NCBI GenBank assembly: GCA_944380845.1
Contig: CALWIU010000008.1
Coordinates: 1-53,991 of the forward strand
Source: an uncultured Clostridia bacterium
Lineage (GTDB): Bacteria; Bacillota; Clostridia; Oscillospirales; Acutalibacteraceae
Length of the DNA: 53,991 nucleotides
Reading direction: 5' to 3'
A program made the position numbers and the translations under genes. Of the stretch, positions 21,688 to 31,968 are shown piece after piece (within the stretch, counting starts at the first letter, position 1; each line of letters starts with the position of its first letter). The notes below the pieces were generated by a model. It saw only the letters and a list, made by a program, of their open reading frames with translations, made no database searches and was not told where the DNA came from.

Positions 21688-22368
21688 ATGAAAAAAACCA
21701 AAAAACTGTTAGCCCTTCTGTTGAGCCTCCTGCTTTTCGGCTCGATGATGATCGGCGGTTTTGCCGCAGATGATTCCATCGGCGTTTGGGAAGCCTGCCG
21801 GCTGACCATGGCGGATGCGGGACTGAATTACGACCGCCTGGAACGGGAACATTTTATTCCCTATATGAGCGATATTCACTGGAAAGAAAATTTCAGCAAA
21901 GACCCCTTTGCCCTGACCGGCTATGAAATCGATTTTGTTTACCGTGGACAGCAATATGCGTATCTTGTCGCCCCCAACGGCGCGATTCTGGAAAAAACCG
22001 TCACCAACACCATGCCGGCGATTTCCGCCGACCGTCCCCTGACCGAAGATCTGGCACGCGCCATCGCCGTGGCGTATATCGGCTACCCGGATCAGCTGGA
22101 TCAGGCAAAGAACTGGAAGATCCAGTTTGACATGGACGACGGACGGTATGTCTGCGATGTGGATTTCCTGTTTGACGCAAGAAGCGCCTCCGTCAGTGAG
22201 CCGAACGCGATTTACGAGTATGAATACGAACTGGAAATCGACTGCAATACCGGTGCGATCCTCTCTTCGGACTGCGAAGACAATACCCGGTCGTTTTTAA
22301 GCCTGCTGACCGACTTCTTCAATCGCATCGTCATTTTCTTCCGCCAGATCTTTGGCGTATTTGCCTGA
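21688..22368 (+). CDS. Secreted PepSY-like protein with amphipathic C-terminal tail
   Basis: The ATG at 21688 (226 aa) is preferred over an in-frame TTG at 21679 because GAAAAGAG lies 9 nt before it. Residues 1-26 are a signal peptide (MKKTKKLLALLLSLLLFGS...GGFA). Two PepSY-like units follow: YEIDFVYRGQQYAYLVAPNGAILEK (about 65-90) and WKIQFDMDDGRYVCDV to YELEIDCNTGAILSSD (about 148-195). PepSY domains often bind or inhibit proteases; that role is inferred. The last 25 residues (SFLSLLTDFFNRIVIFF...IFGVFA) form an amphipathic, aromatic-rich helix resembling small peptides and another secreted protein in this window. No cell-wall sorting motif is present. Confidence 0.8.
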   Translation: MKKTKKLLALLLSLLLFGSMMIGGFAADDSIGVWEACRLTMADAGLNYDRLEREHFIPYMSDIHWKENFSKDPFALTGYEIDFVYRGQQYAYLVAPNGAILEKTVTNTMPAISADRPLTEDLARAIAVAYIGYPDQLDQAKNWKIQFDMDDGRYVCDVDFLFDARSASVSEPNAIYEYEYELEIDCNTGAILSSDCEDNTRSFLSLLTDFFNRIVIFFRQIFGVFA

Positions 22369-22453
22369 TACGAAACGGGGAAACCTACCGATTCTCATTT
22401 CTTTTAGATCCTCATTTTTCCTCTTTCCCATGGTTTCGTTTTCCCTGAAAAGA

Positions 22454-22484
22454 GATCGCCCGCTCCCCAAAGGAGCGGGCGATC
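22454..22484 (+). terminator. First of twin terminator hairpins
   Basis: Perfect 13-bp stem gatcgcccgctcc / ggagcgggcgatc with loop ccaaa, followed by TTCTT. It lies 85 bp after the stop of the PepSY-like gene. Confidence 0.75.
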
Positions 22485-22516
22485 TTCTTATGGAAAAAAG
22501 TCTTTATCAACAGTCT

Positions 22517-22552
22517 GACCGCCCACTCCCCAAAGGAGCGGGCGGTCTTTTT
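22517..22552 (+). terminator. Second of twin terminator hairpins
   Basis: A 13-bp stem gaccgcccactcc / ggagcgggcggtc with one G-T pair and the same ccaaa loop as the first hairpin, followed by TTTTT (22548-22552). It probably also ends the convergent 37-aa gene on the minus strand. Confidence 0.8.
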
Positions 22553-22562
22553 CGGATGACAG

Positions 22563-22676
22563 TTACTGTGCTGCGTCCCCTGCGGCTCCGCCGACAGAAC
22601 CGAAGATCAGGCTGGCAAGTGTGACGACCAGCGTCAGCAGGACACGAAACAGACGGTAAAAATCCATTGCTTTCAT
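22563..22676 (-). CDS. 37-aa hydrophobic small peptide
   Basis: An ATG at 22676 with GGGGAGG about 8 nt upstream opens a 37-codon frame: MKAMDFYRLFRVLL, a hydrophobic core LTLVVTLASLIFG, then SVGGAAGDAAQ. The core could be a single membrane helix or an uncleaved signal. A perfect consensus promoter (22712-22740) lies about 35 bp upstream and a hairpin (22517-22547) lies downstream, so it is a complete transcription unit. I know of no family for it. The IFG ending of the helix recalls the tail of the secreted protein at 21688-22368 just across the terminator. Holin-like, toxin-like or regulatory membrane peptide roles are all possible; none is shown. Confidence 0.65.
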   Translation of the reverse strand: MKAMDFYRLFRVLLTLVVTLASLIFGSVGGAAGDAAQ

Positions 22677-22711: not shown

Positions 22712-22740
22712 ATTATACAGGAAGCGGAAATCCTTGTCAA
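22712..22740 (-). promoter_or_regulatory. Perfect consensus sigma-A promoter for the 37-aa peptide
   Basis: Minus strand TTGACA (22735-22740), exactly 17-bp spacer, TATAAT (22712-22717). It begins 17 bp past the aroQ stop, with a run of eight T on the minus strand (22742-22749) between them. Confidence 0.85.
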
Positions 22741-22756
22741 TAAAAAAAATACCGTC

Positions 22757-23194
22757 TCAGTGCGCCGTCAGTTTTTGATATAAAAAGCGAATCGCTTCCT
22801 CGTACCCGTCAAACCCCTTGCCGCAGATCGTCCGAACCGCGACCGGCGAAACGAAGGAATGCCGGCGGAACGCCTCCCGGCTGTTGATGTCGGATAAATG
22901 CACCTCCACGCAGGGGATGCTGACCGCTTTCAGCGCGTCGGGAATCGCGACGCTGGTATGGGTGTAGGCGGCGGGATTCGGAATGATGCCGTCGGTATTG
23001 CCGTAGGCGGCCTGGATCCGATCGACCAGCGCGCCCTCATGATTGGACTGAAAACTTTCCATCTGCACACCCAGTTCGTCGCAGACCCGCTGACAGCGCG
23101 CCAAAAGCGCGTTCATATCTTCTTTTCCGTAAATATCCGGCTCCCGCAGTCCCAGCAGGTTCAAATTGGGGCCGTTCATAATCAAAAATTTCAT
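22757..23194 (-). CDS. aroQ: 3-dehydroquinate dehydratase, type II
   Basis: A 145-aa protein, the usual length for type II dehydroquinases (about 12 subunits, cytoplasm), which convert 3-dehydroquinate to 3-dehydroshikimate. It opens MKFLIMNGPNLNLLGLREPDIYG; the catalytic Tyr 22 and Arg 17 area, QSNHEGALVD (about 49-58), NPAAYTHTSVA (about 73-83, usually NPGAYTHTS) and VEVHLSDINSREAFRRHS (about 96-113) are all present. The ATG overlaps the stop of the aroE/aroK fusion (ATGA), so translation is coupled. It is the last gene of the aro operon. No hairpin follows its stop, only a T run, so readthrough into the 37-aa gene is possible. Confidence 0.95.
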   Translation of the reverse strand: MKFLIMNGPNLNLLGLREPDIYGKEDMNALLARCQRVCDELGVQMESFQSNHEGALVDRIQAAYGNTDGIIPNPAAYTHTSVAIPDALKAVSIPCVEVHLSDINSREAFRRHSFVSPVAVRTICGKGFDGYEEAIRFLYQKLTAH

Positions 23195-24426
23195 TTGCGT
23201 ACCTCCAAATCACACAGGCGGCAAATGGCGTGCGCTGTTTTTTCCACGCCGTCCCCGCAGGAAATCTCATGGTCGCACCAGGCGCGGTACAGCGGCAAAC
23301 GCTCCTTTGCCAGCTGTTCAACGCCCCGGCTTTCCGAAAGGGGACGCCCGGCAGTGGGCAAATCGGCGATCGGACGGTTCAGGAACAAAATCACACTGTT
23401 CTGCCGAAGCAGCGGCAGATTGCGCGGTTCGGTAACCACACCGCCGCCGGTCGAAAGGATCACGCCGCTTTTTTTGGCGTGTTCGGCAAGAATGTCCGTT
23501 TCCACCCGGCGAAAGACTTCTTCTCCGTCCTCGGCAAAAAGCCGCGCAATGCTCTTGCCCGCTTTTTGAGGGATCAGCTCGTCCAGCTCGATCAAAGTCC
23601 GTCCGGTCAGGCGGGAAAGCGTCTTGCCCACCGCTGTTTTCCCGCAGCCGGGCATTCCGATCAGGGCGATATTTTTGGTTTGGCATTCAATTTTATGAAC
23701 GATCTCGGGAATGACCTGATCGTCGATGGTCTGTCCCAGAAACAGCTCCGCCGCTTTTTTCGCCTGCGCGACCAGCATCGGCAGCCCGTTCATAAAGGGA
23801 ATGCCCCGTTCCTCGGCGTCCAGAAGCAGTTTGGTTTTCGACGGATTGTAAATGATGTCGATCACGCCTTCACAGGCGGGAAAATCTGAAAGGGAAACCG
23901 CCGCTGCGCCGCAGTTGGGGAACATCCCCACCGGGGTGGTGTTGACGATCAGATTCGCGTCGGCATGACGATCCAGATTCTGATAATTGTCCGCGCCGGT
24001 GCGAGAGATCACAACGATTTGCGCCGCGCCCCGGTCATGCAGGACCGCACGGGCGGTTTTGGACGAGCCGCCGGAGCCAAGCACCAGCACTTTTTTCCCC
24101 TTCGGGTCAAGCCCCGCCCGCCGCAGCAGGAAATCAAAGCCGTCGTAATCGGTATTGTGCCCTTCCCACGCGCCGTCTTTTTTCAAAAGCGTGTTGACGC
24201 TGCCGATTTTTTGAGCCGTATCTGACAAAACGCGGCAAAACGGCAAAACCGTTTCTTTATAAGGAATGGTCACATTCATGCCGGCAAGGTCGGTCGTTTC
24301 CAGAAAGGAAGCGACTTCCTCCGGCTCTTTTTCATAAAGAAGATATTCATAGTCCGCCAGCAGGCGGTGTATCTGCGGGGAAAAGCTGTGTCCCAGCTTT
24401 CTGCCCAATAACCCGTATTTTTCCAT
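23191..24426 (-). CDS. aroE-aroK: Fused shikimate dehydrogenase - shikimate kinase
   Basis: The ATG at 24426 overlaps the TGA of pheA by one base (TGATG). The frame is open further upstream inside pheA, but the homology starts here. Residues 1-240 are AroE: LGHSFSPQIHRLL (shikimate binding), NVTIPYKE with the catalytic Lys, NTDYDGF and the NADP motif VLGSGGSSKTA. Residues from about 248 are shikimate kinase: Walker A GMPGCGKTAVGK (about 255), ELDELI, the STGGGVV loop (about 330) and GRPLSESRG with the lid Arg. One 411-aa chain would therefore carry two consecutive pathway steps, dehydroshikimate to shikimate to shikimate 3-phosphate. The linker is only about 10-15 residues and no internal start is needed. 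Confidence 0.93.
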   Translation of the reverse strand: MEKYGLLGRKLGHSFSPQIHRLLADYEYLLYEKEPEEVASFLETTDLAGMNVTIPYKETVLPFCRVLSDTAQKIGSVNTLLKKDGAWEGHNTDYDGFDFLLRRAGLDPKGKKVLVLGSGGSSKTARAVLHDRGAAQIVVISRTGADNYQNLDRHADANLIVNTTPVGMFPNCGAAAVSLSDFPACEGVIDIIYNPSKTKLLLDAEERGIPFMNGLPMLVAQAKKAAELFLGQTIDDQVIPEIVHKIECQTKNIALIGMPGCGKTAVGKTLSRLTGRTLIELDELIPQKAGKSIARLFAEDGEEVFRRVETDILAEHAKKSGVILSTGGGVVTEPRNLPLLRQNSVILFLNRPIADLPTAGRPLSESRGVEQLAKERLPLYRAWCDHEISCGDGVEKTAHAICRLCDLEVRK

Positions 24427-25568
24427 CACACGATCTCCGAATAACTGCCGAGGTATTTGAATTTTTCGCAAAGCCCGTCCAATTCGCACAAAAGCCGCAC
24501 AAACTGGTCGGAATAGACCTGGCTTTCCAAATCGAAATAGAACATCCATTCAAAATCCCGCTGGGGGATCGGCCGGCTTTCCAGCTTGATCAGGTTCAGA
24601 TCCAGCGCATAAAAGCGGGAAAGCACCTTATACAGCGAACCGGGCTTGCTGGAAGTCACCATCATGATGCTGGTTTTGTCCGCGCCGGGATAAATTTCCA
24701 GATTTTTGGAAATGCAGATAAAGCGGGTGTAATTGTTGCCGCTGTCCTGCACCGAATCCTGAAGAGACTGCAAGCCGTACAGCTTGGCGCAGGAATGGGA
24801 CGAGAGCGCGGCGACATCCGTTCTGCCGCTTTCGGCAACCATTTTTGCCGCCACGGCGGTGTTCTCGCAGATGTGGATATTGACCGGCTCCATGGATTTC
24901 AAAAAGGACGCGCACTGGTTGATCGCCTGTTCGTGCGAATAAATATCGCGGATATCCTCTTTTTTCGTACCGCGGGGCGCCAGAAGGCTGTGGTCGATTT
25001 TCAGGCGGACGCTGCGCACGATGCTGAAATTATGGGCGCTCATCAAATCGTAGATTTTATTGACCGAACCGGCGGTACTGTTTTCAATGGGCAGCACGCC
25101 GAAGCGGCACATTCCGCTTTCGACGGCGGCAAAAACATTTTCCCAGCTTTTGTAATACAGGATCTGCGGCGATTTGAACAGCTTATCGCACGCCTGCTGG
25201 GAATATGCGCCCTCCACACCCTGACAGGCGACCGTGGCGCTTTCGGGGAACAGACGGTCGGTGTTTTCAATGGCTTGCAGCACCCGCTGTTTCAGTTCCG
25301 AATCGGGGTGGACAACGCTTTCCTGATAAGCGCGGCTCAGCTCAAAGATCTGTGAAAACAGCACGCCGGTATACGGGCGCACCGTTTCGTCGGACAGCGA
25401 AGCGATCTCGGCTAATTTTGCACGCTCCCGTGCCGCGTCCAGGACCGGCAGATGATGTTCGACCTTATATTCCGCAATGCCGTGAGCGATGTTCATTCGC
25501 TCGGTGAACAGGCGGATCAATTCCCGGTCAATGCTGTCGATCCGCTCGCGATATTGACTTAAATCCAT
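24426..25568 (-). CDS. pheA: Bifunctional chorismate mutase / prephenate dehydratase (P-protein)
   Basis: A 380-aa protein with three parts. Residues 1-90 are an AroQ-type chorismate mutase (RIDSIDRELIRLFTERM, then IAEYKVEHHLPVLDAARE). Residues about 108-285 are prephenate dehydratase (CQGVEGAYSQQACDKLF; LPIENSTAGSVNKIYDLM; TRFICISKN, where the usual Thr-Arg-Phe motif is intact). Residues about 295-375 are an ACT domain with KPGSLYKVLSRF and ESRPIP, the phenylalanine-sensing motif. It makes phenylpyruvate from chorismate and is expected to be inhibited by Phe. It lies 12 bp after aroC and overlaps aroE/aroK by one base. Confidence 0.95.
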   Translation of the reverse strand: MDLSQYRERIDSIDRELIRLFTERMNIAHGIAEYKVEHHLPVLDAARERAKLAEIASLSDETVRPYTGVLFSQIFELSRAYQESVVHPDSELKQRVLQAIENTDRLFPESATVACQGVEGAYSQQACDKLFKSPQILYYKSWENVFAAVESGMCRFGVLPIENSTAGSVNKIYDLMSAHNFSIVRSVRLKIDHSLLAPRGTKKEDIRDIYSHEQAINQCASFLKSMEPVNIHICENTAVAAKMVAESGRTDVAALSSHSCAKLYGLQSLQDSVQDSGNNYTRFICISKNLEIYPGADKTSIMMVTSSKPGSLYKVLSRFYALDLNLIKLESRPIPQRDFEWMFYFDLESQVYSDQFVRLLCELDGLCEKFKYLGSYSEIV

Positions 25569-25580
25569 AGAATCCCATCC

Positions 25581-26660
25581 TTATTTTTCCAATAACCGAT
25601 CGTATACCGCCACTGCCGCAGCCGCTTCCACCACGGGAACGGCACGAACGGCAACGCAGGGATCGTGTCTGCCCTGAATGCACAGGGTCGTGTTTACTTT
25701 CTTTTGCAGATCCACCGTCTGCTGACGCAGTGCGATGGAGGGAGTGGGCTTGAACGCCACGGTAAACAGCACGGGCATACCATCGCTCATGCCGCCCAGA
25801 ATACCGCCGCAGTGATTGGTTCTGGTACGCACCACGCCTGCGTCGTCATAATAAAAGGGGTCGTTGTTTTCACTGCCTGCCATTTTGGCGGCGTCAAACC
25901 CCGCGCCGAAGGAAATGCCCTTGACGGCGGGAATTCCAAACACCACCGCCGCGATCGAACCGTCCAGCCCGCCGTATCCGGCGTTGCCAACGCCCACCGG
26001 CAGACCGTCCACCCGGCATTCCACCGTTCCGCCGACGCTGTCCAGCGCCAGCCGCGCCTGTTCGATCCGCTCCTGCATCCGCCGTCCCGCCTCTTCGTCC
26101 AGTGCCGGGAAAGCAGCGCCGGCAAAAAGGGCTTCCTCCTCAGCCGAAAAGGCAAGGGGGTCACAGGGACGATCCGTCACCTCGCCGACGCTGAGCAGGT
26201 GCGCATGAATCGTAATGCCCTGCGCTTTGAGAGCCTGCAAGGCAATGCCGCCCACCACACAGAGCGGCGCGGTCAGCCGCGCAGAAAACTGCCCGCCTCC
26301 GGCGATGTCGTTCATGCCGCCGAATTTGACCGCCGCAGGATAATCGCTGTGGCCGGGGCGGGGCTTTGCCCGCAGTTCATCATAATCCCGTGAACGGGTG
26401 TTGTTGTTTTCAATGATTGCCGTCAACGGCGCTCCGTTGGTTTTGCCGCCGGTCAGCCCGCAAAGAAAACGGGGACTGTCCGCCTCCTTGCGCGGTGTGG
26501 TGCCCTTCTGTCCCGGCGCACGGCGCGCCAGAAAATGGCTCAGTTCGTCCATATCCACCGCAAGCCCCGCCGGGAACCCCTCGACGGTCACGCCGATGGC
26601 TTTGGAATGGGACTGTCCGAAAATGGAAACCTGTAATTGTCTGCCAAAAGAAAAAGCCAT
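25581..26660 (-). CDS. aroC: Chorismate synthase
   Basis: A 359-aa protein that opens SFGRQLQVSIFGQSHSKAIG, the family start with the catalytic His. It contains RRAPGQKGTTPRKEAD, NNNTRSRDYDELRAKPRPGHSDYPAAVKFGG and GGGQFSARLTAP, which shape the FMN and EPSP pocket, and RTNHCGGILGGMSDG. It makes chorismate from EPSP by anti-1,4 elimination using reduced FMN. The aroA stop lies 4 bp upstream. Confidence 0.96.
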   Translation of the reverse strand: MAFSFGRQLQVSIFGQSHSKAIGVTVEGFPAGLAVDMDELSHFLARRAPGQKGTTPRKEADSPRFLCGLTGGKTNGAPLTAIIENNNTRSRDYDELRAKPRPGHSDYPAAVKFGGMNDIAGGGQFSARLTAPLCVVGGIALQALKAQGITIHAHLLSVGEVTDRPCDPLAFSAEEEALFAGAAFPALDEEAGRRMQERIEQARLALDSVGGTVECRVDGLPVGVGNAGYGGLDGSIAAVVFGIPAVKGISFGAGFDAAKMAGSENNDPFYYDDAGVVRTRTNHCGGILGGMSDGMPVLFTVAFKPTPSIALRQQTVDLQKKVNTTLCIQGRHDPCVAVRAVPVVEAAAAVAVYDRLLEK

Positions 26661-26664
26661 GCCG

Positions 26665-27933
26665 TCACGCTCCTGTCTGTATGATCTGCGCGCCCAGAGA
26701 GGAAAAATCCTCCCAGAACCGCGGATAAGATTTTTTCACGGCGCCCGCATCCGTCACCGTGACGGCGCCGTCACAGCAGCAGGAAGCGATGGCGGCGGTC
26801 ATGGCGATCCGGTGGTCGTTGAAGGAATCGCAGACCCCGCCGTGCAGGGAACCGCCTTCCAGAATCAGCCCGTCGTCGGTTTCTTCGACTTTTCCGCCCA
26901 GGGAACGGATCGTACTGCTGACGGTCGCGAGGCGGTCGCTTTCTTTCAAACGAAGCCGCGCGGCATGATCGATGACCGTTCTGCCCTTTGCCCGTGCGGC
27001 AAGCAGGGAAAGGATCGGCACCAGATCGGGAATGTTTTCGGCATTGATCGAAATCCCCGAAAGCGCCGACGGATAGACGGTGCAGGTTCCTGCCGCCGGA
27101 TCCGTTTCGACTTTCGCGCCGAACTGCCGCAGCAGATCGACAATCGCCTTATCTCCCTGCAACGAATCCATATGCAGTCCCGTCACCGTGACCGGCGCTT
27201 TTCCCAAAGCGCCCGCAGCCAAAAAGAACGCCGCATTGGACCAGTCGCCCTCCGCAGCGGCACGCCCCGGCGAAACATACCCTGCGGCGGGTACGATATA
27301 GGTATTGCCGTCAAAGCGCGGCGAAACGCCGAAGGCAGCCATTGCCCCGGCGGTCATATCCACATAGGAACGGGACTCAAACCGTCCGCTCAGATGCAGG
27401 CGGCACTCGTGCCCTGTCAGCGCAAAAGCAAACAGCAGCCCGCTGATGAATTGTGAGGACACATCCGCCGCAATGGAAAAATCCGATCCCGTCAGTTTTC
27501 CGCGCACCGAAAAAGGAACGCTGCCTTTTTCCGAAAGCCAAACGCCGTGCTCCGTCAACACCTCATAAAGGGGCGATAACGGGCGCTGCGGAATGCGCCC
27601 GGTCGGATAAAAATCCGCCTCAATGCCCAGCGCCGCCGCCACCGGGATCAAAAAGCGGAAAGTCGCGCCGCTCTCCCGGCTGTGGCAGTCCGCCCGCGCA
27701 GGCAGCGTCCCGACTGGCGTCACCGAAAAACCGTCGGCGGTGCGCACAATTTTCGCGCCGAAAGCACGCAGGCAGTCGGCTGTCGCCTCAATATCCTCCG
27801 AAGTATCGGTGCAGATCAGTTCGGTATTGCCCCGGCTGAGAGCGGCACAGATCAAAAGCCGATGTGCGGCGGATTTAGAAGTCACCGCCCGTAAGAAGCC
27901 GCCTGCTGGCGGCTGTTTGATGCAAATATCCAT
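26665..27933 (-). CDS. aroA: 3-phosphoshikimate 1-carboxyvinyltransferase (EPSP synthase)
   Basis: A 422-aa protein of normal length. Recognisable positions: the N-terminal SKSAAHRLLICAALS (phosphate-binding Lys-Ser; most bacteria have SKSxxxR), DTSEDIEATADCLRAFGA, HSRESGATFRFLIPVAA, SSQFISGLLFA and, near the C-terminus, LKESDRLATVSSTIRSLG and DSFNDHRIAMTAA. It transfers enolpyruvate from PEP to shikimate 3-phosphate. The usual GNAGT glyphosate-site motif is replaced by RESGAT, closer to class II-like or divergent clostridial enzymes. That difference is visible; its effect on inhibitor binding is not. Confidence 0.95.
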   Translation of the reverse strand: MDICIKQPPAGGFLRAVTSKSAAHRLLICAALSRGNTELICTDTSEDIEATADCLRAFGAKIVRTADGFSVTPVGTLPARADCHSRESGATFRFLIPVAAALGIEADFYPTGRIPQRPLSPLYEVLTEHGVWLSEKGSVPFSVRGKLTGSDFSIAADVSSQFISGLLFAFALTGHECRLHLSGRFESRSYVDMTAGAMAAFGVSPRFDGNTYIVPAAGYVSPGRAAAEGDWSNAAFFLAAGALGKAPVTVTGLHMDSLQGDKAIVDLLRQFGAKVETDPAAGTCTVYPSALSGISINAENIPDLVPILSLLAARAKGRTVIDHAARLRLKESDRLATVSSTIRSLGGKVEETDDGLILEGGSLHGGVCDSFNDHRIAMTAAIASCCCDGAVTVTDAGAVKKSYPRFWEDFSSLGAQIIQTGA

Positions 27934-27944
27934 CCCGATTCCCT

Positions 27945-28994
27945 TTACATCCCTTTCTGGAAGAAATCCGGCAGCTCGCTGACATTCATCGGCAGCAGCT
28001 CGGCTTTTCCGATGTCCCGGGGCACCACCAGCGTGATCGTATCGCCCCGGCGCTTTTTATCCGAAAGGGCTTTTTCGCAAAGCCGCTTTGCCGGATACGG
28101 ACAGGAAAGATCAAAACCGTACATACGCAAAAGCAAAAGAATTTCATCCCGGCAGACCGCGTCGCAAAAACCCATGGCTTCCGCCGCGCGGCTTTCCGCC
28201 GCCATACCGATGGCGACACCGCCGCCGTGGCTGACGGCAAAATGACTGCACGCCTCGACCGCGTGCCCGACGGTATGCCCGAAATTCAAAAGCTGCCGAA
28301 GCCCCGTATCAAATTCATCCTGCGCCACAATGTCCCGCTTGATCCCGACGCACCGGGTAATGATTTTTTCCAGCTGCGGGCGAATCGGCTGTTTCAGCGC
28401 CGCAAACAGTTCGCGGTCGGCAATCACCGCGTATTTAATGACCTCGGCGCATCCGTCGCGGAAAATCTCCTCCCGCAGGGTATCCAATGTTTTGATATCG
28501 CAGATCACCAGTTCCGGCTGGTAAAACGCGCCCGCCAGATTTTTTCCGGCCGGCAGATCGATGGCGGTCTTGCCGCCGACAGAGGAATCCACCGCCGCCA
28601 GAAGGGTGGTCGGCAGCTGAATGAAGTTCATGCCCCGGTTAAAGCACGCCGCCGCAAACCCCGCCAAATCGCCGACAACGCCGCCGCCCAGCGCGGCAAC
28701 CACATCGGAACGGGTAAATTTCTTCTCCGCAAGAAAATTCAAAATCGCCAGAAAGTTTTCGGCATTTTTCGACGCTTCCCCATGCGGTATCACAAAGGTT
28801 TCGACCCGATATCCCGCCTGCCGCAGCGAGGCGGTAAAGGTTTTCCCGTACAGCCCGTCCACCGTGTCATCCGTCACGACCAGCACCGCGTCGCCGCCGG
28901 TGGTCTGCCGGATCCTTCCGCCTGCCTCGGGCAGCAGGTTTTCGCCGATCAGGATTTCATATGTTTTGGACGCCTTAACAACTACTTTTTCCAC
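27945..28994 (-). CDS. aroB: 3-dehydroquinate synthase
   Basis: The start is taken as the GTG at 28994, because GAGGAGG ends 9 nt before it and a TTG at 29003 would abut that site; the product is 349 aa. It contains VTDDTVDGLYG, PHGEASKN, ALGGGVVGDLAGFAAACFNRGMNFIQLPTTLLA (NAD and metal region, about 95-130), SVGGKTAID, and the Zn ligands in EVIKYAV, NFGHTVGHAVE and SHGGGVAIGM. It converts DAHP to 3-dehydroquinate. The gene starts 20 bp inside the end of tyrA. Confidence 0.95.
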   Translation of the reverse strand: MEKVVVKASKTYEILIGENLLPEAGGRIRQTTGGDAVLVVTDDTVDGLYGKTFTASLRQAGYRVETFVIPHGEASKNAENFLAILNFLAEKKFTRSDVVAALGGGVVGDLAGFAAACFNRGMNFIQLPTTLLAAVDSSVGGKTAIDLPAGKNLAGAFYQPELVICDIKTLDTLREEIFRDGCAEVIKYAVIADRELFAALKQPIRPQLEKIITRCVGIKRDIVAQDEFDTGLRQLLNFGHTVGHAVEACSHFAVSHGGGVAIGMAAESRAAEAMGFCDAVCRDEILLLLRMYGFDLSCPYPAKRLCEKALSDKKRRGDTITLVVPRDIGKAELLPMNVSELPDFFQKGM

Positions 28995-29823
28995 CGCCGT
29001 CAACCTCCTCTTTGATTTCTCTGCCCTCTTTCAACAGGGCTTTGAGGGTGTTTCCATCCGCCGTTTCCAGCGCGGTTTTGTATTTTTCCAGCTCGCCGAT
29101 CAAATGCGACAGCTCAAAAATCAGGTTTTCCCGATTGTCCAGAAACAGCTCGGTCCACATGGTTTCATTGAGCCAGGCGACCCTTGTCAGATCCTTATAG
29201 CTTCCCGCCGAAAAACCGGTATGCCGCCTCGCGGTCGGGCTTTTGATATAGGCGTTCGACACCACATGCGCCAGCTGCGAAGTAAAGGCAATCAGCCGGT
29301 CATGCTCTTCGGCGCTTGTTATCGACAGGGTGCCGAACCCCGCCGGCGCCAACAGCCGTTTGATGTTCTCAAGATACGCCATATCCACGCCTTTTTTCGG
29401 CACCAGCACCATCGGCGCGCCCCGGAACAGATCCCCATCTGAATATTTAAAACCGGAAAACTGCGTGCCCGCCATCGGGTGACCGCCCACAAACGAAAAC
29501 CCCTGCTCTTCTGCAATGGGGAAACACGCGTCGCAAACGGCTTTTTTCACGCCGCAGCAATCGATCACCGTTGCGGTTTTGGCAATTTTTTCCTTATTTT
29601 CCCGCAGCCAGGCAATCGAAGCGTCCGGATACACGGTCAGCAAAATCAATTCACAGCGGGGAATGGTCTCATCATCCAACAGCCCGTCCGACGCGCCTGC
29701 CAGTATGGCGAAACGGGCGGTCTGCTCCGTGCGGTTGGAAGCGTAGACCGTACAGCCCGCTTTTTTATACGCCTTTGCCATGGACCCCCCGATCAGTCCC
29801 AGCCCGACAATTCCGACAATCAT
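28975..29823 (-). CDS. tyrA: Prephenate dehydrogenase
   Basis: A 282-aa protein that begins with a Rossmann motif, IVGIVGLGLIGGSMAKAYKK. It carries VIDCCGVKKAVCDAC, GGHPMAGTQFSGFKYSD with the catalytic His region (about 130-145) and TSQLAHVVSNAY with the second conserved His. It oxidises prephenate to 4-hydroxyphenylpyruvate, the tyrosine branch. Unlike many Firmicutes forms it has no C-terminal ACT domain, so feedback control may rest on transcription (see the leader) rather than on this enzyme. It overlaps aroB. Confidence 0.93.
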   Translation of the reverse strand: MIVGIVGLGLIGGSMAKAYKKAGCTVYASNRTEQTARFAILAGASDGLLDDETIPRCELILLTVYPDASIAWLRENKEKIAKTATVIDCCGVKKAVCDACFPIAEEQGFSFVGGHPMAGTQFSGFKYSDGDLFRGAPMVLVPKKGVDMAYLENIKRLLAPAGFGTLSITSAEEHDRLIAFTSQLAHVVSNAYIKSPTARRHTGFSAGSYKDLTRVAWLNETMWTELFLDNRENLIFELSHLIGELEKYKTALETADGNTLKALLKEGREIKEEVDGGGKSSC

Positions 29824-29836
29824 ACCTGTCTCCTCC

Positions 29837-30844
29837 TTATCGTTTCACCGCATCCAGCACCGCGCGCACGCCCTGCGCCAAATCGGCGAACTGCGCCGGC
29901 GTCAGGGACTGCGCACCGTCGCACAGCGCCTTCTGCGGGTCGTTGTGTACCTCGATCATCAAACCGTCCGCTCCGGCTGCCGCTGCCGCCAGCGCCATCG
30001 GCTTGACCATGCGGGCAATCCCCAGCGCATGGCTCGGATCCACCACCACCGGCAAATGCGTCAGCTCATGCAGAACCGGCACTGCGGACAGATCCAGCGT
30101 GTTGCGCGTAACGGTTTCATAGGTGCGGATTCCCCGTTCACACAGAATGATCTGATCGTTGCCGCCCGCCATGATGTATTCGGCGCTCATCAACAGTTCC
30201 TTGATGGTTGCCGCCAGTCCTCTTTTCAGCAAAATCGGTTTTCTGATCTTGCCCAGCTCTTTTAACAGCTCAAAATTCTGCATATTGCGCGCGCCAACCT
30301 GAATGATATCGACATTTTCAAACATCGGCAAATGGTTGGCGTTCATGATCTCGGTGATGATCGGCATCCCGGTTTTCTTTTTCGCTTCCTCCAGAATGTG
30401 GATGCCCTCTTCCTTCAAGCCCTGAAAATCATAGGGAGAGGTACGCGGTTTGAACGCACCGCCGCGCAGCACCCCTGCGCCCGCCTTTTTGACTTCGGCG
30501 GCAATGTTCTGCACCTGCTCGCGGCTTTCCACCGAACAGGGACCGGCGATGAACTGAAAATGTCCGCCGCCGAACTGCACATCGGGCGTCACGCGCACCA
30601 CCGTATCGTCCGGGTGGAATTTGCGGTTGGCGTTTTTATACGGCTCGGTAATGCGCTTGACCGATTCAATGATATCCAGTCCCTGCAAAAGGTCAATGTC
30701 GATTTTCGCCGTGTCGCCGATCAGCCCCAGAATGGTGCTGTACTCTCCCCGCGAAACATGAACATCCAGCCCCTGATCCTTGAACCAGTCGATCAGATTC
30801 TGCATTTGTTTTTCGTCTGTGCCCTGCTTCAATACTGCAATCAT
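29837..30844 (-). CDS. aroF: DAHP synthase (type I beta, with N-terminal FPD domain)
   Basis: The ATG at 30844 has GGAGGG about 8 nt upstream; an upstream in-frame extension overlaps the terminator hairpin and is rejected. The 335-aa product starts with a ferredoxin-like regulatory (FPD) domain (residues 1-70) and continues with the KDSA/AroG barrel: FIAGPCSVES, GGAFKPRTSPYDFQG, QVGARNMQNFELL, LLKRGLAATIKE and VVDPSHALG with the metal-site residues. It condenses PEP and erythrose-4-phosphate, the committed step. As first structural gene of the operon it stands directly behind the aromatic leader and its terminator. Confidence 0.96.
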   Translation of the reverse strand: MIAVLKQGTDEKQMQNLIDWFKDQGLDVHVSRGEYSTILGLIGDTAKIDIDLLQGLDIIESVKRITEPYKNANRKFHPDDTVVRVTPDVQFGGGHFQFIAGPCSVESREQVQNIAAEVKKAGAGVLRGGAFKPRTSPYDFQGLKEEGIHILEEAKKKTGMPIITEIMNANHLPMFENVDIIQVGARNMQNFELLKELGKIRKPILLKRGLAATIKELLMSAEYIMAGGNDQIILCERGIRTYETVTRNTLDLSAVPVLHELTHLPVVVDPSHALGIARMVKPMALAAAAAGADGLMIEVHNDPQKALCDGAQSLTPAQFADLAQGVRAVLDAVKR

Positions 30845-30869
30845 AGAAAATCCCTCCGATGAAATCATT

Positions 30870-30904
30870 ACAAAAAAGAAAGCCATGCAGTGATCCCGCA
30901 TGGC
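30870..30904 (-). terminator. Attenuator terminator of the aro operon
   Basis: Inverted repeat gccatgc (30882-30888) / gcatggc (30898-30904) followed on the minus strand by TTCTTTTTTGT (30870-30880). It lies between the leader-peptide stop (30951) and the aroF ATG (30844), the layout of a transcription attenuator. The loop contains ATCACT on the minus strand, complementary to AGTGAT just after the leader stop, a possible antiterminator contact. Confidence 0.85.
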
Positions 30905-30930
30905 GTTTTTCCGTAAAGAGAAAACGAAAC

Positions 30931-31004
30931 CTTTTCAGCAGAAATCACTTTCACTCAGCCAAAGCAAAGTAAAAGTAATAAAAGTAATATTCAGCTGAAA
31001 AAAG
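30931..31004 (-). promoter_or_regulatory. Leader RNA hairpin enclosing the aromatic codons
   Basis: On the minus strand CTTTTTTCAGC (complement of 30994-31004) can pair with GCTGAAAAG (complement of 30931-30939). It encloses the Tyr/Phe codons and the leader stop, as the 1:2 pause hairpin of classical attenuators does. I judged this by eye; no energy was calculated. Confidence 0.55.
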
Positions 31005-31016
31005 CCGATTCAACAT
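30951..31016 (-). CDS. Aromatic leader peptide (YYFYYFYF) of the aro operon
   Basis: The ATG at 31016 has GGAGA 8 nt upstream; an in-frame ATG at 31022 is too close to that site. The 21-codon frame reads MLNRLFSAE, then eight aromatic codons in a row (YYFYYFYF: four Tyr-Tyr-Phe/Tyr-Phe steps using TAT, TAC and TTT), then ALAE and TGA. It follows a consensus promoter and precedes a terminator hairpin and aroF. A ribosome short of Phe-tRNA or Tyr-tRNA would stall there and could favour readthrough into the operon. This is ribosome-mediated attenuation by analogy with pheA/trp leaders, here covering the entire common pathway. Aromatic runs of this length are very unlikely by chance. Confidence 0.85.
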   Translation of the reverse strand: MLNRLFSAEYYFYYFYFALAE

Positions 31017-31044
31017 TTTCATTCTCTCCGTTTCTTTGACAAAC

Positions 31045-31073
31045 AGTATAGCACGCAGCGCCTGCGCTGTCAA
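31045..31073 (-). promoter_or_regulatory. Consensus promoter of the aro operon
   Basis: Minus strand TTGACA (31068-31073), exactly 17-bp spacer, TATACT (31045-31050). The transcript should start near 31038, about 22 nt before the leader-peptide ATG. Confidence 0.88.
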
Positions 31074-31185
31074 CCGTCGCCGCCGGGGCAGATTGACCGA
31101 ACTTCTTCCGTTTTTTTAGATAACTTTCACAATTTAAAGCCGCATTGCTTTGCATTGCAAAAGAAAATTGAATATTTTAAAAAAT

Positions 31186-31968
31186 TTATGTACGATTTCT
31201 AATGTATATATGTTTTACGCCCTTGTTGTTGGTATCGCGGAAATCCGTTTCAAACATATCGGTACTGCGGATCAGGTCAGACAGCTTGGGGAACCCATAG
31301 TTCCGGCTGTCGAAATCCGGACGCTTTTTGGAAATCAGATTGCCGATCTCCCCCAGGAACGCCCATCCCTCGTCGTCGGCGACGATGTCGATGGAATTGG
31401 CAATCAGGCGAATGACATCCTTGGGCAAAGGCGTGTTCTTTCTGATTTTGGACTGCGCTTTCTGTTCCGTCCTGACGGTTTTGCCCTTGACGGTTTTTTT
31501 CTCGTCCTTTTCCTCCATATGCGGTTTCAAAATTTCCAGATAAATGAATTTTTCACACGCGGCAATAAACGGCGCCGGGGTCTTTTTTTCACCGATGCCG
31601 ATCACCTTCATCCCCGCTTCCCGCAGTCTGGTGGCAAGGCGCGTGAAATCACTGTCGCTGGAAACGATGCAAAAGCCGTCAACTTTGTTGCTGTATAAAA
31701 TATCCATCGCGTCAATAATCATGGCGGAGTCGGTGGAATTTTTGCCGTAGGTATAGCTGTATTGCTGGATCGGAATAATGGCGTTTTCCAACAGGCAGTT
31801 TTTCCACCCGGAAACCGTCGGCTGGGTCCAGTCGCCGTAAATGCGCTTGAGTGTCGGCGTCCCGTAGCGGGTAATTTCCTCCAGCATTTCCTTTACATAA
31901 GAATAAGGCACATTGTCCGCGTCGATCAGCACCGCCAGTCTGAGATCCGAAGCATCGTTATTATTCAT
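31186..31968 (-). CDS. NYN-domain (PIN-like) RNase-type protein with LOTUS-like C-terminus
   Basis: A 260-aa soluble protein. The N-terminal NYN domain (about residues 9-150) shows the four-Asp pattern of the family: AVLIDADNVP, a central KNSTDSAMIIDAMD, and FCIVSSDSDFTRLATRLREAG. A Lys-rich linker (about 150-185) leads to a helical C-terminal domain with DEGWAFLGEIGNLISKKRPDFDSRNYGFPKLSDLIRS, the pattern of OST-HTH/LOTUS RNA-binding domains. Such proteins are predicted RNases. The ATG lies 8 bp inside the end of the transporter gene, so the two are translationally coupled. The aro promoter starts about 110 bp downstream; that gap is AT-rich and shows no clear terminator. Confidence 0.85.
   Translation of the reverse strand: MNNNDASDLRLAVLIDADNVPYSYVKEMLEEITRYGTPTLKRIYGDWTQPTVSGWKNCLLENAIIPIQQYSYTYGKNSTDSAMIIDAMDILYSNKVDGFCIVSSDSDFTRLATRLREAGMKVIGIGEKKTPAPFIAACEKFIYLEILKPHMEEKDEKKTVKGKTVRTEQKAQSKIRKNTPLPKDVIRLIANSIDIVADDEGWAFLGEIGNLISKKRPDFDSRNYGFPKLSDLIRSTDMFETDFRDTNNKGVKHIYIRNRT

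Follow-up and report, generated by a model that had tools for sequence, protein, structure and literature searches.

A candidate leader-peptide attenuator with tyrosine and phenylalanine control codons ahead of an aromatic amino acid operon in Clostridia

A leader with attenuator features ahead of aroF

We analyzed contig CALWIU010000008.1 (assembly GCA_944380845.1), a stretch of 53,991 nucleotides (nt) from an uncultured Clostridia bacterium that we refer to as the window. On its minus strand, the region from 31073 to 30845 lies ahead of aroF, the first gene of an operon for phenylalanine and tyrosine biosynthesis, and very probably acts as a ribosome-mediated transcription attenuator with joint sensitivity to the charging of tRNA-Tyr and tRNA-Phe. 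The first-pass annotation, made from the letters of this DNA, had proposed a leader peptide that senses both amino acids. Our analysis supports this proposal by way of a conserved run of aromatic codons, a terminator, conserved stems, and control codons that follow the identity of the gene behind them.

All elements named in that annotation, namely a promoter, a ribosome site, a 21-codon open reading frame (ORF) with eight aromatic codons, a terminator, and aroF, could be located on the minus strand (Table 1). Their order is promoter, Shine–Dalgarno (SD) motif, leader ORF, G+C-rich terminator hairpin, a further SD motif, and the ATG of aroF at 30844. The promoter matches the consensus at 11 of 12 positions (TTGACA-17-TATACT). 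An alternative in-frame ATG at 31022 would lengthen the leader ORF by two codons. Dinucleotide shuffling of the window's own 350 nt upstream of aroF produced eight aromatic codons in eight in 0 of 5000 cases, and at least six in 28 of 2000. The stem of the terminator, which is directly followed on its 3′ side by TTTCTTTTTT, contains nine pairs, the most among 18 terminator-like sites listed between 22500 and 31400 (shuffle mean: 13.2 sites). The features that mark an attenuator are therefore found together: an ORF with an SD motif before a biosynthetic operon, tandem codons for the end products, a terminator, and mutually exclusive conserved pairings. The ORF, its codon run, the three predicted stems that exclude each other, and the match between codons and genes emerge directly from the sequence and its comparison with relatives.

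The codon run and the terminator are conserved

The comparison covered 110 aroF relatives, made up of the 30 best loci from related whole genomes (40 of 60 with a match) and the 80 best-listed loci from genomes of named species. Within 350 nt upstream of aroF, 73 of the 110 loci contain at least six aromatic codons in eight, which is a rate among close relatives given this choice of best or closest loci; the corresponding rate in 2200 dinucleotide shuffles is 0.41%. At least seven in eight occur in 41 of the loci (shuffles: 0.05%), and eight in eight in 15 (shuffles: none). Of the 92 loci that have a run of five or more within 500 nt, 77 also show a terminator between this run and aroF when a strict rule without mismatches is applied. 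This alignment of upstream regions had been set as a check beforehand, and with the run and terminator kept at these rates and the stems conserved (see below), the prediction came through it.

Further counts were made on loci drawn from a set of 63. Two of these, L011 (spurious run) and L044 (near copy of L005), were removed for codon counts and folding, leaving 61 leaders, and three more were removed for the SD count because their upstream sequence is too short. Of the remaining 58 loci, 49 have an in-frame start and an SD-like motif ahead of the run, as compared to 49 of 1160 shuffles. Named carriers of the leader include Sporobacter termitidis (L038), Aminicella lysinilytica (L072), an Emergencia sp. 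(L063), for which the strict rule did not find a terminator, and Angelakisella massiliensis (L065), with a run of five. The leader also occurs in many assemblies from gut and rumen that bear the titles Clostridia or Oscillospiraceae, and in one titled Treponema (L036).

The runs of the 61 leaders contain 219 Tyr codons, 190 Phe codons, and a single Trp codon. Tyr and Phe are both present in 61 of 61 leaders, and Trp occurs anywhere in the leader peptide in only four. Among the Phe codons, TTT outnumbers TTC by 164:26 in the runs versus 303:287 in the aroF genes of the same loci, whereas the Tyr codons show no shift (TAC:TAT 129:90 versus 148:97). We infer that the TTT bias arises because the control codons double as an arm of the 1:2 stem, an explanation that leaves the absent Tyr shift unaccounted for. 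Operons without tyrA have on average 2.25 Tyr and 4.25 Phe codons in the run and those with tyrA (37 loci) have 3.78 and 3.0, a difference in the expected direction, but the former are four loci, too few for a comparison, and tyrA may have been missed in some.

Three stems that exclude each other

The leaders of relatives share a layout that consists of TTTGCAGC, the control codons (for example TAC TTT TAC TTT), AAAGTAAAAGTGATTTCTGCTGCAAA (segment 2), a variable spacer, and the terminator, with GCAGTGAAATCAC (segment 3) as its 5′ arm and loop. Segment 2 is predicted to pair back with TTTGCAGC and the control codons (1:2) or onward with segment 3 (2:3), which can otherwise pair with segment 4 (3:4). 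In the window, GCUGAAAAGG (30939–30930, within segment 2) pairs with segment 1, and the preceding part of segment 2 pairs with the control codons, the majority of which double as the 5′ arm of the inner 1:2 stem.

We examined these pairings in 32 of the 63 leaders (alignment A1), which were picked after the result of the swap test described below had been seen; the structures were drawn from the alignment itself, so that the following pairing percentages lean favorable. For 2:3, 87.2% of the cells are paired, compared to 81.1% in letter shuffles and 32–57% when the arms are slid by one to three columns, and 25 cells changed on both sides (shuffles: 8.8). The 3:4 stem has 90.6% of its cells paired and 79 cells changed on both sides (shuffles: 21.0). 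The 1:2 stem is paired in 80.3% of the cells versus 36–52% when slid, with 26 cells changed on both sides versus 11.2. Compensatory change is thus clear for the predicted 2:3 and 3:4 stems, and 1:2 is the least supported of the three.

In the swap test, the duplexes formed by segments 2 and 3 of the same locus had a mean energy of −16.6 kcal/mol, as opposed to −11.8 kcal/mol after swapping between the 63 loci. In 61 of 63 cases, the own 2:3 duplex is more stable than the average duplex that its segment 3 forms with segments 2 swapped in from other loci, and 44 of the 63 loci have z < −2 in comparison to shuffles. This test is usable for 2:3; its 1:2 half was discarded.

Several observations weigh against the attenuator model. 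The seven pairs of 2:3 that changed on both sides were equaled by 31 of 500 shuffles. For 1:2, the corresponding count of 13 is matched by some slid versions (9–15), and one arm of this stem is also coding. The window's own 2:3 duplex is unexceptional in comparison to shuffles (z −0.9). When the window's leader is folded through its terminator, the energy minimum retains the terminator hairpin whichever of the eight codons the ribosome occupies; therefore, the antiterminator would have to win by forming first, as it does in other attenuators. With a ribosome placed on the first aromatic codon and the RNA ending after segment 3, at least seven 2:3 pairs form in 58 of 61 loci, but the same fold does so in 727 of 1220 shuffled controls, and we therefore give the folding of stalled complexes little weight. 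In ribosome-free folds, seven or more 1:2 pairs appear in only 46 of 61 leaders and seven or more 2:3 pairs in 31 of 61; the window's leader does form 1:2, in an energy minimum that also pairs its own SD motif. Finally, 21 of the 110 loci lack a run of at least five within 350 nt upstream. Among these, L084, L096, and L104 have a run at a larger distance, and L097 is represented by only 57 nt of upstream sequence.

Control codons change with the gene behind the leader

A covariance model built from the 32 leaders was searched against 391 genomes from the class and matched in 45 of them, in 30 of 223 genera, at E up to 1e-3, with some false matches included. Among the 50 of 55 places for which flanks were compared, 41 (the window's own included) precede aroF, tyrA, or pheA, one precedes paaK, and one tyrS. 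Seven have no match to the eight window proteins behind them, and two of these (L120 and L164) were inspected further. The former, a second match in the window's own genome (C10:40398-40532, E 1.9e-5), is a false positive with neither an aromatic run nor an operon protein behind it; an E value near 1e-5 is therefore no proof by itself.

The most informative cases come from genus g115. Several of its genomes hold two matches, one ahead of aroF-tyrA and one ahead of a separately located pheA. Among 58 genomes searched from the family of this genus, 24 have matches at E up to 0.01, all within g115. Examination of 32 of the 39 places in this genus placed 16 ahead of pheA, 14 ahead of aroF-tyrA or tyrA, and two ahead of neither. 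The 16 pheA leaders (13 distinct; matches at E up to 0.01, among them several whose runs reach no more than four or five in eight) contain 116 Phe codons and one Tyr codon, with 15 of them free of Tyr, whereas the 14 aroF/tyrA leaders contain 83 Tyr and 44 Phe codons. A rank test of pheA against aroF/tyrA leaders gives p 4e-6, a value that overstates independence because all leaders come from one genus. Each kind of leader has its own version of segments 2 and 3, which fit each other (nine and six inspected): in the pheA leader L179, AGTTCTCACTGC fits GCAGTGAGAACT, and in the aroF leader L200, GTGGTTTGTGC fits GCACGAATCAC. This codon switch is what would be expected of an amino acid sensor after an operon has split, and in our view no other sequence evidence presented here speaks as strongly for function.

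Two single cases involve other genes. A leader with Phe and Tyr codons (L152/L205, G165:C158:10811-10974, E 2.3e-7) stands before a gene for a phenylacetate-CoA ligase-like protein and a gene for a protein with an ACT domain; the best family of the ligase-like product is PaaK (560 bits, under the model cut-off of 646), and control of aromatic amino acid synthesis from arylacetates is possible. Another leader (L154, G410:C4:30958-31114, E 8.4e-6) precedes tyrS and has three consecutive Tyr codons. Among 30 paaK loci, a run of at least six was found at the source locus only, and none was found among 30 further tyrS loci; runs of five at L208 (paaK) and at L245 and L258 (tyrS) were judged unconvincing. 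Hence, L152 and L154 stand as single cases, which hint at retargeting of the leader. Among 398 sampled genomes from the phylum, seven match at E up to 1e-4, including the window's genome; the other six, which are listed as the same phylum but not the same class, have aroF and tyrA behind the match.

From these data a broader picture can be drawn, which we see as evenly poised between holding and failing. It describes a clade-wide aromatic leader regulon of gut and rumen Clostridia, in which an ancestral attenuator would have been copied or moved and its codons re-specified for each gene: Tyr and Phe for the whole operon, Phe for pheA, Tyr for tyrS, and Tyr/Phe for the phenylacetate-CoA ligase with its ACT protein. 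Such leaders would persist beside T-boxes because one leader answers either of two tRNAs and a single T-box specifier does not.

Proposed mechanism and alternatives

According to the model that we favor, transcription would start near 31040 and a ribosome would translate the leader. Shortage of Tyr or Phe would cause this ribosome to pause on one of the eight control codons, where it would keep segment 1 and the control codons from forming the 1:2 hairpin, so that segment 2 is freed for segment 3. The resulting 2:3 antiterminator would take up the apex and loop of the terminator, and RNA polymerase would continue into the eight-gene operon. With both amino acids in ample supply, the ribosome would reach the stop codon inside segment 2 and cover this segment, and the terminator would form. 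From the arrangement of these elements we infer that the ribosome pauses, that a shortage of either amino acid suffices (OR logic), and that readthrough changes as a result.

A narrower version of this mechanism, in which the leader senses mainly one amino acid, most likely Tyr, and the presence of Phe codons partly reflects the fit of UUU to the stem, is unlikely but deserves consideration. The first two control codons are Tyr, and a ribosome under starvation stalls at the first codon that lacks its charged tRNA; the preference for TTT is also expected if the codons double as a stem arm. Nevertheless, the Tyr codons lack a comparable shift, every one of the 61 leaders contains both residues, and before a lone pheA it is Tyr that vanishes and Phe that persists, which argues that the Phe codons carry information.

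Two further alternatives dispense with the sensing ribosome or with the leader altogether. The alternative stems by themselves are silent on the selecting agent, and a protein or small molecule could choose between 2:3 and 3:4 in the manner of TRAP or a riboswitch even if the ORF is translated. We consider this very improbable, since the conserved features are codons, SD motif, and stems, codon identity tracks the gene, and Rfam 15 contains no family that matches at the gathering cut-off in the window, the region 30700–31200 included. Even less credible is a chance low-complexity ORF of TTT and TAC repeats before an ordinary terminator of an upstream transcript. The upstream gene (31968–31186) does run in the same direction and the terminator could belong to it, but promoter, SD motif, and ORF sit between this gene and the terminator, and the conservation of run, SD motif, and stems contradicts a chance origin. 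Joint sensing of Tyr and Phe by a translating ribosome thus remains the preferred explanation.

Relation to known systems

The enterobacterial pheA and pheST leaders, which we take to be Rfam family Phe_leader (RF01859), combine an ORF rich in Phe codons with 1:2, 2:3, and 3:4 pairing logic and a terminator before the structural gene, and are not known to have a Tyr run. The leader described here shares this logic of ORF, stems, and terminator but differs in its target, which is the whole pathway rather than pheA or pheST. RF01859 is not among the Rfam matches of the window at the gathering cut-off, nor among those of 30700–31200 at E up to 10. The best match in the latter, loose search was SpF22_sRNA (E 0.038, 22.6 bits versus a cut-off of 55), which we rejected. 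The ilvGMEDA and thrABC operons of E. coli have multivalent leaders with branched-chain or Thr/Ile codons; these gammaproteobacterial examples likewise use one leader for several amino acids, with codons that differ from Tyr and Phe. Firmicutes are usually described as regulating amino acid genes by T-boxes, which bind uncharged tRNA directly through one specifier codon. A T-box (RF00230) likewise converts tRNA charging into a choice between terminator and antiterminator, but it binds the tRNA itself.

The nearest printed system that we found is the uORFC-13-1 motif, as presented in the available part of PMC8632094. This motif comprises 24 sequences from Acholeplasma and environmental DNA, in which an upstream ORF before aroF is accompanied by promoter regions, a ribosome binding site, a terminator, and a U run that encodes at least one Phe. 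Incorporation of Phe was proposed as the signal, and the same part of PMC8632094 mentions an earlier hypothesis of aroF attenuation in E. coli. Compared by description only, the two systems share the ORF before aroF, a promoter, the ribosome binding site, and the terminator, but no Tyr run or antiterminator is described in that part of the paper. In the portions of the literature available to us, leader-peptide attenuators in Firmicutes are those of hisS and hisZ (PMC2965389), of his operons (PMC9413887), and of hisZ and Lactococcus lysQ (as cited in PMC4833913). They use the same kind of attenuation but, as far as these portions tell, serve histidine-related genes and lysQ in few lineages.

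We found no report of a Tyr and Phe leader attenuator in Clostridia in the open-license literature (titles and starts of abstracts). The proposed mechanism is classical; its specificity for Tyr and Phe, the whole-pathway target, the breadth within Clostridia, and the codon switching appear to be new as far as this literature tells. The candidate would thus add a leader attenuator for an entire aromatic pathway to the Firmicutes, for which the consulted portions report mostly histidine leaders in few lineages. It also offers an explanation for a common short ORF, and a natural experiment in how an attenuator changes its amino acid specificity.

T-boxes and tryptophan in the host genome

T-boxes and the aromatic leader coexist in one genome. 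The window's genome has eight T-box matches (five above the cut-off), the best of which lies ahead of pheS, and the genes behind them include pheS, ileS, and genes for a TrpX-like transport protein and a TrpB-like enzyme. Within the window, the T-box covariance model has no match. One cell therefore appears to read the charging of tRNA-Phe in two ways, by a T-box at pheS and by a leader peptide at the aromatic operon. T-box control of aroF was considered for the relatives without a near run and rejected, as none of the 14 loci searched (of 21) has a T-box at gathering score. One T-box above the cut-off (L114, G000:C2:13708-13915) lies ahead of a nicotinate-nucleotide adenylyltransferase gene, an unexpected target that may be the first member of an operon.

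The first-pass annotation had remarked that the leader contains no Trp codon although chorismate also feeds Trp. The absence of a Trp codon stands, but the premise about chorismate may not: neither Anth_synt_I_N (trpE/pabB) nor IGPS (trpC) turned up in this genome (87% complete). Without a trpE- or trpC-type gene, chorismate may not lead to Trp, a possible explanation for the missing codon. On the simplest reading, chorismate supplies Phe and Tyr, and the cell obtains Trp by uptake or by synthesis from indole; one of these two routes is likely in this host. The T-box matches ahead of the TrpX-like (L112) and TrpB-like (L117) genes are both in this genome, with L117 under the cut-off. However, Anth_synt_I_N is present in five of the 27 leader-bearing genomes searched, and the runs of these five are likewise free of Trp codons, except that in Sporobacter one directly follows the run.

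The operon behind the leader

The eight-gene operon from shikimate to Phe and Tyr that had been annotated is corroborated by family models, in the order aroF-tyrA-aroB-aroA-aroC-pheA-aroEK-aroQ (Table 1). Its genes are tightly spaced or overlapping. The eight ORFs represent ten activities, since two of them are fusions: pheA joins mutase and dehydratase, and the aroE frame also encodes shikimate kinase. In line with the earlier remark that TyrA lacks an ACT domain, no ACT match was found at E up to 0.001, and two Pfam domains occupy residues 16–266 of 282. PheA has a weak C-terminal ACT match (16 bits, under the cut-off). The first-pass suggestion that attenuation may account for much of the tyrosine feedback needs to be qualified, because AroF carries the ferredoxin-like domain PF18152, which we take to be the site of Tyr/Phe feedback in related DAHP synthases; feedback on the AroF enzyme is therefore likely to add to attenuation.

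Table 1. Coordinates of the leader elements and operon genes in the window
Feature	Position	Strand	Remarks
−35 element TTGACA	31068..31073	−	17-nt spacer to −10
−10 element TATACT	31045..31050	−	17-nt spacer to −35; TG precedes −10
SD motif GGAG of leader ORF	31026..31029	−	
Leader peptide ORF MLNRLFSAEYYFYYFYFALAE, 21 codons and stop	30951..31016	−	ATG at 31016
Eight control codons, Tyr-Tyr-Phe-Tyr-Tyr-Phe-Tyr-Phe (YYFYYFYF)	30966..30989	−	run in leader ORF
Segment 1 CUUUUUUCAGC	30994..31004	−	outer part of predicted 1:2 stem
Segment 2	30930..30954	−	includes leader stop codon
Predicted antiterminator 5′ strand GUGAUUUCUGC	30938..30948	−	inside segment 2
Predicted antiterminator 3′ strand GCGGGAUCAC	30890..30899	−	segment 3 (end of terminator 5′ arm and loop)
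Intrinsic terminator (3:4)	30872..30904	−	stem 30904–30882, U tract 30881–30872
aroF, DAHP synthase with N-terminal ferredoxin-like domain	29837..30844	−	NF006421, PF18152
tyrA, prephenate dehydrogenase	28975..29823	−	PF02153, PF20463
aroB, 3-dehydroquinate synthase	27945..29003	−	TIGR01357
aroA, EPSP synthase	26665..27933	−	TIGR01356
aroC, chorismate synthase	25581..26660	−	TIGR00033
pheA, chorismate mutase–prephenate dehydratase	24426..25568	−	family models
aroE-aroK fusion, shikimate dehydrogenase–shikimate kinase	23191..24432	−	family models; start chosen by us, frame stays open further upstream
aroQ, type II 3-dehydroquinate dehydratase	22757..23194	−	TIGR01088

The neighboring gene upstream of the leader (31186–31968, minus strand) encodes an NYN domain and an OST-HTH/LOTUS domain. 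Immediately behind aroQ, at 22712–22740 on the minus strand, lies a promoter with the perfect sigma-70 consensus (TTGACA-17-TATAAT), which is followed by an ORF for 37 amino acids with a hydrophobic middle (MKAMDFYRLFRVLLTLVVTLASLIFGSVGGAAGDAAQ; 22563–22676, minus strand). On the plus strand, a frame of 90 amino acids (22352–22624) contains the sequence DRPLPKGAG twice and is perhaps a small repeated intergenic element.

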